Shown: positions 4,087-8,785 of the stretch, in pieces
Layout: the number at the start of each line of letters is the position of its first letter
Numbering within the stretch: position 1 is the stretch's first letter
Assembly: GCA_016181345.1 (NCBI GenBank)
Contig: JACOZM010000076.1
Location: forward strand, 1-9,622
Direction: 5' to 3'
Length of the DNA: 9,622 nucleotides
Source: Candidatus Woesearchaeota archaeon
GTDB lineage: Archaea > Nanobdellota > Nanobdellia > Woesearchaeales > GW2011-AR9
Notes under the pieces: model-generated
What the model saw: the letters and a program-made list of their open reading frames with translations, nothing else
What the model was told of the DNA's origin: nothing
Database searches by the model: none
Translations under genes and position numbers: made by a program

Positions 4087-5220
4087 TTAACCTTCTTTTA
4101 ATTTTCGAATAATATCTTTTGTTGACAGCAATGTTTCAGTTCCAGAGACCATGTCTCTCAATAGGACCTTATCTTCGTTGATCGTATTAATCGGAATGAC
4201 GTAAGCCTTAGTAAGGTTTCCAGAAGAAATTTTGCCTTTTTCCTTTAATGTTTCAACGATAGGAACTAAACCAAAACTTCCGCCGACAGCAGGAATCACT
4301 CGGTTTCCGCCCATAAAGTTACCGATCATATTATCCCATCTCCCTCCAGAACCTAAAGAGGAAGTGATCTTACTTTCTTTTGCATAAACTTCAAAGACTG
4401 TTCCTGTGTAATAGGCTAAGCCACGAGCCAAAGAAGCTTCAAATTTTATTTTTTTCAGGTTCATCTTCTCGATATATTGGAAAAGCTCAGATAATTCTTT
4501 CAGCCCTTCAATCCCTTCTTCTGCAGTGATCTCCTCTTTTAATGTTTGCAAGGATGTTTGTGGATTAATAAGAGTCAAAATTGCCTTGATCTGTTTTGAA
4601 TTTAATCCCCGTGTTTTTAGCTCTTCAGTAACTCCCTTTTCTCCGATCTTATCTAGCTTATCGATAGTGACGATAGCTGTTTCTTTATCAGTAATTCCTG
4701 CTTGCTCCAAAATCCCATTAAGAAGCTTACGATTATTGACTTTAATGATGACGTCTATTCCGAGCTGATCAAATCCATTTTCGAATAGTGCGAGGCATTC
4801 AGCATCAGCCACCATCGAACTACTTCCAATGATATCAAAGTCACATTGCCAGAACTGGCGCATCCTTCCTGCCTTGATAGGGCCGTCGCGAAAGACAGGA
4901 CCTATTTCATATCGCTTAAAGGGCATTTTCAAATTAGGATTCATCGCTATATATCTGGCTAATGGTACGGTTAAATCAAACCTTAACCCCAAATCACGGT
5001 CGCCTTGATCTTTTAATTTAAAGATTTCTTTCAGAGCATCAGAAGCTTCCCCGGCAGCAAATTTTGCTGCTAAAGTTTCGTAGCGTTCGATTAAAGGGGT
5101 TTCTAGCGGATAAAAGCCGTACAGAGAAAATATCTTCTGTAATGACTCTGCGAGCTGATTTTTCAACGCTTTTTCTTCCGGTGGAACGTCTTGTGTTCCT
5201 TTAGCATTTTGTAGATTCAT
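4087..5220 (-). CDS. hisS: Histidyl-tRNA synthetase with internally shortened anticodon-binding domain
   Basis: 377 residues; most HisRS are about 410-430. Charges tRNA-His with histidine in the cytoplasm (class IIa). Catalytic parts are intact: motif 1 around PLETPLIE (38-45), LRFDLTVPLARY (79-90), motif 2 with FRDGPIKAGRMRQFWQCDFD (110-129), the HisA motif LARGLAYYTGT (264-274, Arg266) and HisB GSGGRWDN (290-297). Motif 3 reads GGSFGLVPI (313-321), with Pro320 where an Arg is usual. The C-terminal domain starts normally (KAYVIPINT, 338-346) but then goes straight to INEDKVLLRDMVSG and the final helix, so about 45 residues forming helix 1, strand 2, helix 2 and strand 3 appear to be missing in frame. 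The start has an SD (GAGGTC, 5232-5227) 6 nt upstream. Last gene of a probable operon that begins with tRNA-His at 8522. Could be a variant enzyme or an assembly deletion. Confidence 0.93.
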   Translation of the reverse strand: MNLQNAKGTQDVPPEEKALKNQLAESLQKIFSLYGFYPLETPLIERYETLAAKFAAGEASDALKEIFKLKDQGDRDLGLRFDLTVPLARYIAMNPNLKMPFKRYEIGPVFRDGPIKAGRMRQFWQCDFDIIGSSSMVADAECLALFENGFDQLGIDVIIKVNNRKLLNGILEQAGITDKETAIVTIDKLDKIGEKGVTEELKTRGLNSKQIKAILTLINPQTSLQTLKEEITAEEGIEGLKELSELFQYIEKMNLKKIKFEASLARGLAYYTGTVFEVYAKESKITSSLGSGGRWDNMIGNFMGGNRVIPAVGGSFGLVPIVETLKEKGKISSGNLTKAYVIPINTINEDKVLLRDMVSGTETLLSTKDIIRKLKEG

Positions 5221-5233
5221 AAGATAGACCTCT

Positions 5234-5350
5234 TCATTGTATTTTTCTTGATTGTATTTCTCTTAATCGTGTTCTCCTCAGGGATATTTCCCTTAATTAT
5301 ATTCTCTTAATGATCTTTTCCTTGATTATTCTCTTATTAATTATATTGCT
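5234..5350 (-). repeat. Degenerate short tandem repeats across the HAD stop codon
   Basis: On the plus strand the stretch is a series of units of about 12-18 nt resembling TTGATTGTATTTCTC, TTAATCGTGTTCTCC, TTAATTATATTCTC and TTAATGATCTTTTCC. It encodes the Ile/Lys/Asn-rich tail of the HAD-like protein (IINKRIIKEKIIKRI) and continues beyond its stop towards the HisRS start. Confidence 0.55.
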
Positions 5351-6190
5351 CTTTATTTTTGCATTGTTTAAAAAGTTTGTCAACTGATTGCTAAAAAATT
5401 GAGAAGCGGCAGTACATTGAAGCAGAGAATCTACTTCAAGATCTGGAGGAGTGATATTCTCTAAATAACGATATTTTCCTCTTCTCACCCTTACTGTTCT
5501 AAGACCGGCCACTTCTGCAGCAAGAAGTACTTTTGGACGATCATCAAGGACTAAAACTTCCTCTTTACGACAGCACAATTCTTTTAAAATTACGTTCCAG
5601 GCAGAAGGATTTTCTTTGGAAAGCCCTATTTTATCCGTAGTAATGATCCGGTCAAAAAATGGAGTTAAACTTAATTTGTCCATAACTTGTTGTTCGTATT
5701 TCTCACAACCATCAACACAAAGAATTAAGTTATACCTTTGAAATAATTCTCTTAAACCAACAAGGACGTCTGGATAAAGAGAAACATTCTCTGAAAAAAC
5801 AGTCCATTTTCTATCTGCTAGTTCGTTGATGATTTCTTTAGGTATTTTAACGTTCATCTTTTCAAATGTTTTTTCCAACAATACTCTTTCATCAATTAAA
5901 ATTGCTTTGGTAATTATTGTTTCTGCATCTTTTATTTCTTTATCATTGATATCCCTACTACGAATTACTTTATCAGTTATTATTTTTTTACTATCAGCAT
6001 CAGTCTTAGCATCAGCCTCAGATTCTATCTCTACTACTACCTGCTGATAGGCTTCTAAAAAAAGAAAAAAAGGAGGAAGCGTAGTATTTGGAGAGATTTC
6101 CTCATACGCTTTCTTCATTGCTTTAGCTAGATCATCCTCTCCAGTTTTTATACAAGTTTGATATCCGTCGATGATAAGTGTCGTGATCAT
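5297..6190 (-). CDS. HAD-like hydrolase superfamily protein with atypical motifs I and II
   Basis: 297 residues from the ATG at 6190, which overlaps the stop of the upstream gene as ATGA (6190-6187), a sign of translational coupling. The longer reading with 34 more N-terminal residues lies inside the neighbour and is rejected. HAD motif I is IIDGYQT: nucleophile D8 is kept but the second Asp is Tyr10, as in the DxYxT of haloacid dehalogenases. The motif II position is in LCVDG (157-161) without the usual Ser/Thr. Motif III K192 (GLSKENPSAW) and motif IV VLDDRPK (D216, D217) followed by AAEVAGLRTVRV are typical. A long charged insert (about 55-105, rich in D/E/K/A) forms an unusual cap region. 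The Ile/Lys tail after about residue 265 is repeat-derived. Substrate unknown; reduced phosphatase activity or a binding role is possible. Confidence 0.75.
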   Translation of the reverse strand: MITTLIIDGYQTCIKTGEDDLAKAMKKAYEEISPNTTLPPFFLFLEAYQQVVVEIESEADAKTDADSKKIITDKVIRSRDINDKEIKDAETIITKAILIDERVLLEKTFEKMNVKIPKEIINELADRKWTVFSENVSLYPDVLVGLRELFQRYNLILCVDGCEKYEQQVMDKLSLTPFFDRIITTDKIGLSKENPSAWNVILKELCCRKEEVLVLDDRPKVLLAAEVAGLRTVRVRRGKYRYLENITPPDLEVDSLLQCTAASQFFSNQLTNFLNNAKIKSNIINKRIIKEKIIKRI

Positions 6191-7647
6191 CTTTTTTCTA
6201 CAGCTAGGTAGAACCTTAACTCCGCTGCGTAATCTCCTGCTAAGCTTCCTTGATTTAATGTTTCTTTTGTTAATCTTAACCAAGGAGGACACATTTTTTC
6301 CAAGACGACTCCAGAAGGTTTATATTTTCTTAAGTCATCAATCAAGATTGGTCCTGTTCTGCGTTCTTTCCCACGATAAACCATCCAGTTTCCAAACTCC
6401 TCCTGAACTTGAGCCAGAGCAAATTCTGTTCCTAATGAACTAGCTCTTTGTTCAAAATCAACTAAGCTAGAAACTCTAACGCCAAATTCTTTTTGCAAAT
6501 TATCCGCCATAGATTGCAATACATAGTTCCTTAATGGAACTCCATAGAGCTGAGCAAGACAAGCTGTTGGCAAAGAGTTCTTTACTTTAGCAATCTCGGG
6601 TTTGAAAGAAGTGACAATATTTACTCCTTCTTCTTGACCGTCAGCCATTTCAGTCTGATAACCTAATTCAGCAAGTTTTTTCTGAAGCATTCGAGCTTCC
6701 CAGAGATTCATTCCTAAGAACGGCCGAACAATTTGCAGCCTTGCCTCATAACTAGATAAGGCCCTAGCTAGAATATTCGCAGGGTCATTATAGATAGGAT
6801 CAACAAGATTACAGAAATACAAATCAGCAATAGCCCCGCCGCCTAGGCCTCCTACATCAGTAACCGTCCAATTTCCTTCTCTATCTTTCATAAAGTCAAA
6901 GGCAAGCATATACGTTTCTAGATTTGGTGTTTTATCCCAAGTCTTTTTCTTGAATCTGGCTAACGTTCCTTCAACATCTCCAGACAATCTCCATTCTCCT
7001 GCAAACTGGCTGAATCCTTGAAACATAGAATATGCTGCTTCTTCTAACCGGGCTAATTCTTCACTAGGAACGATTAAAGCTTTGCTGCCAATGTTAAAAA
7101 AAAATAGCGGATAACGGCCCATTCCTTGAGGCTTACTTCCAGGACTAATCTTTCTGTTTACGAAATCCAAGAGTTTGTTGATTCTTCTTAGACTATATTT
7201 TTTACTTGTTGCTGGATCTCTCACTATCCTTAATGTTTCTTCTAATCGCTGGCTTTCGCCTTGTTTTTCCATCGCAGATCCTAACCATGGCTCAGGAAAA
7301 CAAGCTAACGGCAATCCTAAAACACTTTCTTCTAATCCTAAATAATTTCCAGGCTTTACCGGCAAGGTTATACCAGAATTAAATGTCTGGCTTGTCGTCA
7401 AGGACTTAACAATTCGATCAATAACCGGCATGCCTTGGAAGTATTCTAATGGCTCTCGCAACTGAAGAAGAGTCTCTTTAAGTTTTAGATCTTCATCATT
7501 TCCTCCAAATAAAGACGCTAATTCCTGTTTACTTCGGCAATCTAAAATATTTCCGTATTTTGAAATCCACGGGTTACCACTAACTCTCGCTACCCACCCC
7601 AATGGTATTGATTGATAATTGCCGGGGGTGAATACAACCAGCATCAT
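6187..7647 (-). CDS. Large unknown protein, possible ATP-grasp-like fold; 5' end uncertain
   Basis: 486 residues from the first ATG (7647); a TTG at 7665 would add six. The only SD nearby is GAGG (7663-7660), 12 nt before the ATG, which is far. A much better SD plus ATG at 7717 reads in another frame (see the 7580-7717 entry), so the true N-terminus may be about 23 residues longer through a +1 shift. No family is recognised with confidence. AFDFMKDREGNWTVTDVG (249-266) followed by GLGGG resembles the D-x-M-x-D-x-x-G-x-W-x-x-x-D/E segment of ATP-grasp ligases, and a later stretch (WMVYRGKERRTGPILI, then VVLEKMCPPWLR) is similar in flavour. The protein is soluble, with no signal peptide. It lies 87 nt after the Cys-containing unknown gene (17 nt if started at 7717), and its stop overlaps the HAD-like gene by four bases, so the three are probably made together with HisRS. 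Confidence 0.7.
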   Translation of the reverse strand: MMLVVFTPGNYQSIPLGWVARVSGNPWISKYGNILDCRSKQELASLFGGNDEDLKLKETLLQLREPLEYFQGMPVIDRIVKSLTTSQTFNSGITLPVKPGNYLGLEESVLGLPLACFPEPWLGSAMEKQGESQRLEETLRIVRDPATSKKYSLRRINKLLDFVNRKISPGSKPQGMGRYPLFFFNIGSKALIVPSEELARLEEAAYSMFQGFSQFAGEWRLSGDVEGTLARFKKKTWDKTPNLETYMLAFDFMKDREGNWTVTDVGGLGGGAIADLYFCNLVDPIYNDPANILARALSSYEARLQIVRPFLGMNLWEARMLQKKLAELGYQTEMADGQEEGVNIVTSFKPEIAKVKNSLPTACLAQLYGVPLRNYVLQSMADNLQKEFGVRVSSLVDFEQRASSLGTEFALAQVQEEFGNWMVYRGKERRTGPILIDDLRKYKPSGVVLEKMCPPWLRLTKETLNQGSLAGDYAAELRFYLAVEKR

Positions 7648-7717
7648 TTCGTGCTTGATCCTCAAAATTACTTACTATTTCAATTCCCATTTTTTCGTTT
7701 TCTTTTTCTTCTTTCAT
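7580..7717 (-). other. 45-codon reading frame with strong SD, probable out-of-frame 5' end of the gene at 6187-7647
   Basis: Starts 17 nt after the stop of the upstream gene, with GGAGGA (7732-7727) placed 9 nt before the ATG at 7717. The first residues are MKEEKENEKMGIEIVSNFED and the frame stops at 7580. The larger gene is read in the frame reached by skipping one base. The frames can be joined at the run of five C's (7628-7624): reading CAC CCC, skipping one C, then GGC AAT gives a continuous 509-residue product. Either the strain or assembly has one extra C, or ribosomes shift here, or this is an independent short peptide overlapping the larger gene. Confidence 0.5.
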
Positions 7718-7733: not shown

Positions 7734-8294
7734 TTATCGCCTACAACTCAGTTTTCTTCCTACATCATTATTCGAGAATTGTTCCCTCGCCTTTAGGTAA
7801 TTCATTCCTTTAGCTGCTGAACCACCTTCTAAGTATCCGCGGACATCAGATTCAGTAGGAAATTTAGTCCAAGCACTATCAAAAGGAACGATAAGAAATC
7901 CTGCACGTTCAAGTCTTCCAAATGCTCTAAGCCGATATTTTTCTGCTTCTTCATCGGTGCCAATGGCTAATGCATTAAACTGCAAAGGCCGATTATACCA
8001 TATCTGGGGAATACCATAATCTTGGTTTAAAACAATCCTAATCCCGTCCGATGCTTCACAGCAAAATTGTGCTCTACATTCTGCCCATTCTTTTTCTCGT
8101 TGCACAGTGCACTCATCTGGTCCGAGATATACCTTCCTAAACAACCGGTCTATTTGCGATTCATCCAGTCCTTCTCTTTCAACCATTTCAAAAAATGGCG
8201 GAAGGCATGAATAAACCGAAATAGGTGGTGACTTCTCCACTATGAGTCTCGCCTTCAAGACTGTACCTATTTGCAATTCCAGTGCTTGTGTCAT
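7734..8294 (-). CDS. Cysteine-containing protein of unknown function, first protein gene after tRNA-His
   Basis: 186 residues, not recognised. Soluble, no signal peptide. Six cysteines, four of them between residues 62 and 79 (ECTVQREKEWAECRAQFCCE), a spacing that could bind metal but matches no standard zinc finger that I know. The C-terminal half reads like an alpha/beta domain: GIRIVLNQDYGIPQIWY (84-100), a helix with EEAEKYRLRAFGRLERAG, then FLIVPFDSAW, which resembles restriction-endonuclease-like or nucleotide-processing folds only vaguely. SD GAGGAG (8309-8304) 9 nt before the ATG. It begins 50 nt after the 3' end of tRNA-His with no T-run between, suggesting a joint transcript, and is followed by the large unknown protein. 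Confidence 0.75.
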   Translation of the reverse strand: MTQALELQIGTVLKARLIVEKSPPISVYSCLPPFFEMVEREGLDESQIDRLFRKVYLGPDECTVQREKEWAECRAQFCCEASDGIRIVLNQDYGIPQIWYNRPLQFNALAIGTDEEAEKYRLRAFGRLERAGFLIVPFDSAWTKFPTESDVRGYLEGGSAAKGMNYLKAREQFSNNDVGRKLSCRR

Positions 8295-8303
8295 TTTATT
8301 TAT

Positions 8304-8309
8304 CTCCTC
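8304..8309 (-). promoter_or_regulatory. Shine-Dalgarno of the 186-residue protein
   Basis: GAGGAG followed by ATAAATAAA and ATG at 8294. The same spacer sequence is used by the next gene downstream. Confidence 0.8.
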
Positions 8310-8379
8310 GCTTATAGCCCGACGGCTCGTTGGTTAGTATTGAGGCCTGCAGGAAAGAATCGAACTCTCGCTTCTAGAA

Positions 8380-8426
8380 ATCTGCAATGTTAACAACAAT
8401 AGTTGATATTTGACAACTAAAAGAAA
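8380..8426 (-). other. Canonical tRNA intron (position 37/38), 47 nt
   Basis: Exon bases CTGT (8432-8429) pair with intron GCAG (8385-8382) to give the four-pair central helix. The 5' bulge GA^T and the 3' bulge AT^T then place both cuts after the second bulge base, exactly between 37 and 38, as expected for the archaeal splicing endonuclease. The inner helix next to the 5' bulge is weak (a relaxed motif); the intron body contains an AGTTG/CAACT hairpin. Confidence 0.85.
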
Positions 8427-8451
8427 TCACAGTCTAGCGTGCTAGCCGTTA

Positions 8452-8509
8452 TGCACAAAATGACATCGATCATTTTGGCATCCCAGAAAAATCGTTGTTT
8501 TTCTGTGGA
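8452..8509 (-). other. 58-nt insertion in the D-arm, probable second intron
   Basis: The insert falls between tRNA positions 12 and 13 or 13 and 14 (a T at each border makes it ambiguous by one). It folds as two adjacent hairpins of 29 nt each: 8509-8481, with TCC/GGA, a bulged A and CAGAAAAA/TTTTTCTG; and 8480-8452, with TGCC/GGCA-like pairing through a bulged T and AAAATGA/TCATTTT. A strict bulge-helix-bulge site could not be drawn at either border, so the removal mechanism and exact cuts remain open. Confidence 0.65.
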
Positions 8510-8522
8510 CACTACTGCAGGC

Positions 8523-8785
8523 ATAAAACAATCTTAAGGGACAAATGTCCTAACGATGATGAAAATTAGAAACAATACTGATTAATGGTTGTATTTTCGG
8601 ACTACAAAATTGACGATAATTAAGAAAGTTTAAACTAGAAAAAATATCACTAACAGTGAATACAATCAACTCTGGTTTTAGCAATCATAATGAATAAAAA
8701 TCAACACTTTTATTTAAACCTTTCGTTTTTGTTGTAACTGAAAAGTTAGAAATTGCTGTGAAAAGATAGTATGACAAAAGATGGT
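8523..8785 (-). other. Intergenic leader region before tRNA-His
   Basis: No convincing protein gene. On the minus strand GGTTTAAATA at 8720-8711 is a good TATA element, predicting a transcript from about 8690 towards tRNA-His. The first ATG (8688) opens only a 12-residue frame (MIAKTRVDCIHC) ending at 8650. An imperfect palindrome, GGACAAATGTCC (8539-8550), lies just ahead of the tRNA. Confidence 0.5.
8711..8720 (-). promoter_or_regulatory. TATA box, probable promoter of the tRNA-His to HisRS unit
   Basis: Minus strand GGTTTAAATA with purines upstream (AAA), a good archaeal element. It is the clearest promoter between the seven-helix protein gene and tRNA-His. It would leave about 170 nt of leader to be removed by RNase P. 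Confidence 0.5.

Follow-up and report, generated by a model that had tools for sequence, protein, structure and literature searches.

A dispersed double-hairpin repeat in the D arm of a tRNA-His gene ahead of hisS in Woesearchaeota-like archaea

Among palindromic repeats, Rickettsia palindromic elements are able to sit in frame inside genes, and in the E. coli thrS operator and in T-box leaders, RNA related to tRNA precedes the gene for an aminoacyl-tRNA synthetase. REP/REPIN elements are described, in the portions of the sources consulted, as inverted REP doublets (PMC3116915), with a tag, GTAG or CGTC, at the foot of the REP hairpin (PMC3733652). For archaea, the consulted portions of two further sources report tRNAs with multiple introns as well as intron transposition (PMC4033280) and some splicing endonucleases that accept relaxed motifs (PMC12397907).

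Here, we describe a locus that recalls each of these systems. In the 9622-base stretch of DNA analyzed (the window), a gene for tRNA-His(GUG) at the head of the hisS operon is interrupted by two inserts, of 47 and 58 nt, the longer of which is a copy of a dispersed repeat. Our main reading, built on sequence comparison, is a tentative one, to which we give a probability of roughly 0.47: the repeat would have inserted into the tRNA-His gene of the hisS leader and be retained in the RNA, the 47-nt insert would be spliced out as an intron, and the leader tRNA would be mainly cis-acting. In the titles and abstract openings of the literature matches listed for Woesearchaeota tRNA introns, palindromic repeats, and noncanonical tRNA introns, the repeat is not described; neither is the leader in those listed for archaeal synthetase leaders, attenuation, and small open reading frames (ORFs).

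The interrupted tRNA-His gene and its relatives

The window is contig C5 of a genome of 902,592 bases in 146 contigs, estimated to be about 68% complete and labeled G000 here (other G numbers denote related genomes). On the basis of its histidyl-tRNA synthetase (HisRS), the closest named relatives are Woesearchaeota and Nanoarchaeota metagenome-assembled genomes, with a best identity of 59%. The window also contains a 5S rRNA gene (positions 822 to 710, minus strand; 69.4 bits against Rfam).

The tRNA gene occupies positions 8345 to 8522 on the minus strand, running from G-1 (8522) to C73 (8345), with the anticodon GTG at 8430 to 8428. Its identification as tRNA-His(GUG) in the preliminary description holds: once the 47-nt and 58-nt inserts are set aside, 22/22 stem pairs of the cloverleaf form, with all 8 pairs of the acceptor stem present and the T arm and anticodon stem complete. 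Routine tRNA scans do miss the gene, as had been anticipated, since ARAGORN found no tRNA in the window and the tRNA model of Rfam yielded only a partial match, at 21.0 bits (cutoff, 29 bits), when the stretch was searched alone; in the Rfam scan of the whole window, a tRNA was not among the matches at an E value of ≤1.

A model of this gene and its upstream leader (R2) has matches in 45 of the 49 family genomes. Two kinds of tRNA-His gene could be told apart among the 46 R2 matches listed: a canonical type A, with a GGCGGCC-like acceptor sequence, and type B, the kind present in the window. Type B genes, read by eye among these matches, number 22 (G000, G001, G003, G005, G010, G012, G013, G014, G015, G019, G022, G024, G025, G030, G031, G032, G033, G060, G061, G064, G065, and G071). 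An intact type A gene is located on contig C50 of the window's own genome, which rules out the interrupted gene as the sole tRNA-His there. The preliminary description had named such an intact second copy as part of what would mark the interrupted gene as a pseudogene; that copy was indeed found. Nevertheless, a simple pseudogene does not describe the interrupted gene, whose kind was recognized in 22 genomes and stands at the head of the hisS operon. Of the 20 fetched type B loci, 16 have, according to a motif search, the anticodon and T arm of a type A gene upstream and in the same orientation. The other four genomes in which the D-arm site is filled (see below) have a canonical type A gene as well; this gene is uninterrupted in G014, whereas in G031, G061, and G064 it carries its own inserts. 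Leaders of the outgroups also hold a tRNA-His, which, among the R2 matches read, is the sole one in G207 and G213. The idea that the leader tRNA-His would be the only one outside the family was dropped, since two genomes outside the family each have a second GUG tRNA outside the hisS leader (G183, contig C20, L288; G040, contig C12, L292); having two tRNA-His genes is therefore not special to the family.

Conservation of the type B cloverleaf is more than chance. Over 21 genes, 455 of 462 stem cells are paired, compared to a maximum of 373 in 1,000 shuffles; the exon boundaries and the arms were delimited by eye (a procedure biased toward pairing), and the shuffles ignore relatedness. G064 was left out of this table owing to a partial deletion of its D stem; its other stems are kept, as judged by eye. 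G-1:C73 and the GUG anticodon, which are identity elements of tRNA-His, are present in all 21 tabulated genes. Inspection by eye also revealed that G024 and G064 have G-A in the D loop, where the others have G-G, and T at position 56 of the T loop, where the others have C; these changes read as A19:U56 replacing G19:C56. G064, which carries this A19:U56-type combination, is one of the genes with a filled D-arm site.

A dispersed repeat at one point of the D arm

The D-arm insert (positions 8452 to 8509, minus strand) has the anatomy and coordinates originally assigned to it, with two abutting 29-nt hairpins making up the 58 nt. The first hairpin (8481 to 8509, minus strand) and the second (8452 to 8480, minus strand), which is approximately the reverse complement of the first, are closed by the foot pairs TCC/GGA and TGC/GCA, and each contains one bulged base 3 bp above its foot. 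Because of a repeated T, the insertion site can be written as either 12/13 or 13/14.

A BLAST search of the locus against 60 related genomes returned many copies of the insert besides those in tRNA genes. In G010, 39/39 bases (37 of the insert and the two preceding it) are found in three places and 37/37 in a fourth, and G029, G033, and G035 show 95 to 97% identity over 35 to 39 bases of the insert region. A covariance model was built from nine copies of the repeat, with the window copy as one of the nine seeds (R1); it scores the window copy at 87.5 bits on the minus strand and 62.6 bits on the plus strand, as expected of a near-palindrome. Both helices of the repeat covary, with 97.9% of cells paired and 11 pairs changed on both sides in the nine seed rows, and 0 of 500 shuffles reached either value. 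At an E value of ≤0.01, R1 matches 43 of the 49 family genomes, with 1 to 52 matches each, counted among the best 108 candidates per genome and with many places counted on both strands, the element being near-palindromic. Beyond the family, R1 yielded fewer matches, most of them weaker (40 of 193 order genomes at an E value of ≤1e-6, five of which are family members); since a double-hairpin model may catch unrelated palindromes, we do not claim the repeat there. Some copies (L003 to L006, L010, L116, and L122) appeared by eye to lie inside larger palindromic structures with further hairpins. Kissing between the two loops of the insert was considered and rejected, as the loop sequences do not change together (by eye).

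Of the 22 type B genes, 5 have the D-arm site filled, at the same point (G000, G014, G031, G061, and G064), and in the other 17 it is empty. R1 confirmed the filled state in 5 of the 20 fetched type B loci, while G012 and G022 were judged by eye. With a like insert at the same site in four other genomes, an assembly artifact is unlikely. Between the sister genomes G060 and G061, the D-arm site is marked by a clean 57-nt gap; similarly, a comparison of G026 with G062 and G063 revealed a clean 57-nt in-frame gap in a gene for an Lhr-type helicase (L012/L271; contig C6 of G026), with the Pfam domains WH_Lhr, DEAD, and Helicase_C; here, G026 carries the repeat and its sister species lack it. A target duplication was not seen at either of these two sites, and among the other 37 genomes, none yielded a match spanning the helicase stretch. 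Among the copies examined outside tRNA-His, 2 of 61 (L012 and L135) lie inside frames that are open for at least 60 amino acids (aa) on both sides, and 59 of 61 do not. In L135 (contig C12 of G002), the frame is open for 277 and 124 aa on either side of the repeat.

When the filled/empty label was mapped onto a HisRS tree (20 family genomes and two outgroups), five changes were needed, all of which are forced by well-supported branches; each of G031, G014, G061, and G064 is sister to an empty genome, with support of at least 95/95. G064 is grouped with G013 in this tree, even though it shares its genus label with G024 and G065 (both empty as well); the HisRS phylogeny may therefore deviate from that of the genomes in places. 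When the five D-arm copies were compared with 47 other copies, three were nearest to copies elsewhere and two to another D-arm copy. Five insertions at one site and an old insertion followed by precise losses both fit this pattern. The double-hairpin palindromic repeat is likely to have arrived in the type B leader gene by insertion at the DNA level. A Y1 transposase as its mobilizer is not supported: Y1_Tnp (PF01797) is present in 17 of the 49 family genomes, and was not found in the incomplete G000; among genomes with high copy numbers, none was found in G036, G011, and G068, and one in G067.

Fate of the two inserts in the RNA

The 47-nt insert (positions 8380 to 8426, minus strand) lies between A37 and U38 (37/38). 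It fits an archaeal tRNA intron, as the preliminary description had it, and splicing is predicted: the 4-bp central helix CUGU/GCAG (4/4 pairs) is flanked by the 3-nt bulges GAU and AUU, with the 5-bp anticodon stem as the outer helix. The inner helix is not contiguous, making this a relaxed case of the bulge-helix-bulge motif, and for that reason the insert was not listed by a stricter splice-motif scan. Judged by eye, a CUGU/RCAG helix is also compatible with the 37/38 inserts of G001, G014, G015, G022, G030, and G032 and, with wobble pairs, with those of G010 and G019, but not with those of G025, G031, and G065. That a splice-like intron persists at this position in several type B genes argues for tRNA-like maturation and thereby against our main reading.

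The D-arm insert had been taken for an intron as well, a view that is not supported, since the insert is a copy of a dispersed repeat and lacks the motif where it would be needed. At the cuts that would restore the D arm, only 1 or 2 of 4 central pairs and no pair of the outer helix are available for a bulge-helix-bulge, in all five filled genes; as a control, the D-loop inserts in the type A genes of G060 (L197) and G064 (L203) show a 4/4 central splice helix. The stricter scan found no motif at the D-arm insert either, although it failed to list the 37/38 insert as well. We infer that the D-arm insert is retained, given the lack of a good splice motif around it and the C50 gene, which would supply decoding. 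According to our main reading, then, the D-arm insert would likely stay in the RNA as two side hairpins, the 47-nt insert would be removed as an ordinary tRNA intron, and the intact C50 tRNA-His is predicted to do the decoding. Minimum-energy folds of the window's tRNA did not yield a clean cloverleaf, whether the insert was retained or spliced out, and so favor neither form.

It is possible, but in our view doubtful, that the 58 nt are a genuine, very unusual second intron that spread as a mobile element and is excised by an unusual or relaxed activity, so that the gene yields tRNA-His. Removing exactly 58 nt (52 nt in G031) lets the D-stem halves pair 4/4 in four of the five filled genes, as expected of something excised, and this speaks against our main reading. 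Additionally, with a shift of 3 bases, G000, G014, G061, and G064 allow a 4/4 helix flanked by two 3-nt bulges (3/4 in G031), and the consulted reports of multi-intron tRNAs with intron transposition (PMC4033280) and of relaxed motifs (PMC12397907) offer precedents. The shifted helix has no outer helix, and the D loop of its product would be without A14. Against excision, apart from the absence of the motif at the cut positions yielding a normal D arm, stand the hairpins of the insert, which are closed at their own feet, and the 59 of 61 other copies outside long open frames, where splicing has no obvious role. Furthermore, G064 has lost part of the D stem that excision should rebuild and has kept its other stems, which supports retention. 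The endonuclease itself (PF01974) was found in 47 of the 49 genomes, nearly always as one match in a frame of 195 to 275 aa; in G000, the single match is on contig C37. This is the size of the strict-type, single-domain endonuclease; it is the two-domain enzymes that take relaxed motifs. A relaxed two-domain enzyme is thus not supported by frame length, although a second subunit is possible.

The hisS leader and its comparison with known systems

In the window, a TATA box (TTTAAATA; positions 8711 to 8718, minus strand) precedes a small ORF encoding MIAKTRVDCIHC followed by a stop (8650 to 8688, minus strand), a predicted leaderless leader peptide with one His codon that is present in 19 of 20 type B loci. 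In the window, this ORF has 12 codons, ending in Val-Asp-Cys-Ile-His-Cys. Of the 19 loci that have the small ORF, 18 carry a TTTAAA beginning 30 bases upstream of the ATG, a spacing that presumably puts the ATG at the 5' end of the transcript. In 19 of the 20 loci, an ORF of 10 to 30 codons containing Val/Ser-Asp/Glu-Cys/Tyr/Gly-Ile/Leu/Arg-His lies before the tRNA, a pattern that was derived from the same loci on which it was scored; leader-peptide attenuators likewise have, ahead of the operon, a small ORF containing codons for the amino acid under regulation, and here one conserved His codon is present in 19 of 20 loci. The 19-base core of the small ORF (at most one mismatch) was found in 27 of 287 order genomes, versus 1 of 287 for the reversed pattern. 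Most of the 21 loci listed for this core precede tRNA-His, hisS, or hisG-like genes; L238 and L257 have no clear his context. Possibly, the small ORF at 8688 to 8650 (minus strand) and its counterparts in L237 to L263 represent an archaeal histidine leader peptide.

Between the small ORF and the tRNA, the motif CATCATCGTTAG (positions 8550 to 8561, minus strand) precedes a short hairpin. The sequence at 8561 to 8550 (minus strand), CATCATCNNNTAG, is also present in relatives and reads in frame as His-His-x-stop; an ATG opening this frame was not seen in the window. Beyond the tRNA, just before the ribosome-binding site, lies an H-type pseudoknot (8308 to 8327, minus strand) with the helices P1 (AGCC/GGCT) and P2 (TCG/CGA). 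The pseudoknot covaries over 18 loci: P2 is paired in 51 of 54 cells, a value that 0 of 2,000 shuffles reached (the strings having been picked by eye), with G003 (1/3 pairs) and G019 (2/3 pairs) as the exceptions. The pseudoknot was absent or not parsed in four type B loci (G013, G014, G032, and G022, the last of which differs in spacing). In the Rfam scan of the whole window, only the 5S rRNA matched, and no family was returned for the pseudoknot.

Downstream on the same strand, hisS is present in 19 of the 20 type B loci, as recognized by an N-terminal motif; the contig of the 20th ends 366 bases downstream. In the window, four ORFs follow the pseudoknot on the minus strand: one of 186 aa (positions 7734 to 8294), without a Pfam match; one of 492 aa (6187 to 7665), without a Pfam or NCBIfam match, whose start (LVVFT) is similar to the initial segment encoded by the first genes of related operons; one for a HAD-family hydrolase (5297 to 6292); and hisS itself (4087 to 5220), assigned by Pfam and by NCBIfam TIGR00442 (over the cutoff). 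At 377 aa, the encoded HisRS is shorter at its C-terminal end than full-length relatives (420 to 443 aa). A second reading of the GCIH/DCIH kind occurs after the type B gene in L219, L221, L226, L227, L233, and L236 and in the window around 7636 (minus strand). It overlaps, in another frame, the start RLRxxxVLVVFT of differing downstream genes, and a programmed frameshift or a shared start segment is a possible explanation. In L221 and L230, a short HisG-like protein is encoded between the type B gene and hisS (PF01634 over the cutoff in both; TIGR00070 below the cutoff in L221), and similar ORFs were seen by eye in L218, L228, and L232. The position of this HisG-like ORF beside hisS in L221 and L230 recalls the HisG-HisZ pair.

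A role of the leader tRNA in cis is suggested by its folding, by its histidine identity, and by its location ahead of hisS. In our main reading, the leader tRNA would form a folded domain recognizable by HisRS or tRNA-processing enzymes that helps to set hisS expression, alone or together with the His-codon ORF and the pseudoknot. A more specific proposal, which we consider unlikely in its entirety, is that a histidine-sensing leader unlike any described, consisting of a leaderless ORF ending in Asp-Cys-Ile-His-Cys, a complete tRNA-His, and a pseudoknot at the ribosome site, controls hisS (in relatives, hisG) in Woesearchaeota-like archaea, and that in five lineages a mobile palindrome entered the D arm at the same exact point and was kept, making the leader tRNA a purely cis-acting mimic.

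The same leader bears on whether the gene might be a dying duplicate, made dispensable by the intact copy on C50 and hit by the repeat as a pseudogene. Signs of decay do exist, with two anticodon-stem mismatches in the type B gene of G061, compared to one in that of its sister G060, and the partial loss of the D stem in G064. However, we regard this explanation as quite improbable in light of the near-complete pairing over 21 genes, all with G-1:C73 and GUG, the 22/22 stem pairs of the window copy, and the conservation of leader and pseudoknot around the gene. An ordinary, functional second tRNA-His, merely cotranscribed with hisS without regulation and with a retained insert that the ribosome tolerates, is very improbable even though the cloverleaf and the histidine identity elements are intact and a tRNA-His adjoining hisS recurs in the order, because a pair of additional hairpins at 12/13 would be expected to interfere with the D stem and with the 8-14 contact of the tRNA structure and because the conserved small ORF and pseudoknot point to control.

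If our main reading is true, the repeated occurrence of a dispersed palindrome at a single exact position in a tRNA gene offers a direct look at how archaeal tRNA genes become interrupted, and it serves as a warning that an insert in an archaeal tRNA need not always be an intron. The leader, in turn, points to amino acid control of an archaeal synthetase operon through a His-codon leader ORF and a tRNA-His domain, a proposal that is directly testable.

As for the closest described systems, the repeat is, like REP/REPIN elements, a short dispersed palindrome of two hairpins in inverted orientation, with clean presence or absence between relatives. It differs in that its hosts are archaea, in that its hairpins abut without a spacer, in that the linked RAYT (Y1) transposase was not found in most family genomes (PF01797 in 17 of 49, none found in G000), and in that copies are also situated within a tRNA gene and in frame within a helicase gene; a shared GTAG or CGTC foot tag was not present in the copies inspected by eye. 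Rickettsia palindromic elements are alike in their in-frame palindromes and differ in host organism and length. With archaeal bulge-helix-bulge tRNA introns, which, in the consulted portion of PMC4033280, include transposed ones in Thermoproteales, the locus shares extra sequence within tRNA genes, the D arm among its sites, for which transposition is the likely source here, whereas the ends of the D-arm repeat lack a good splice motif and its copies outside tRNA-His are far more numerous. Finally, the leader resembles the E. coli thrS operator and T-box leaders in placing tRNA-related RNA ahead of a synthetase gene, and it differs from them in presenting a complete tRNA-His cloverleaf together with a His-codon small ORF and a pseudoknot.
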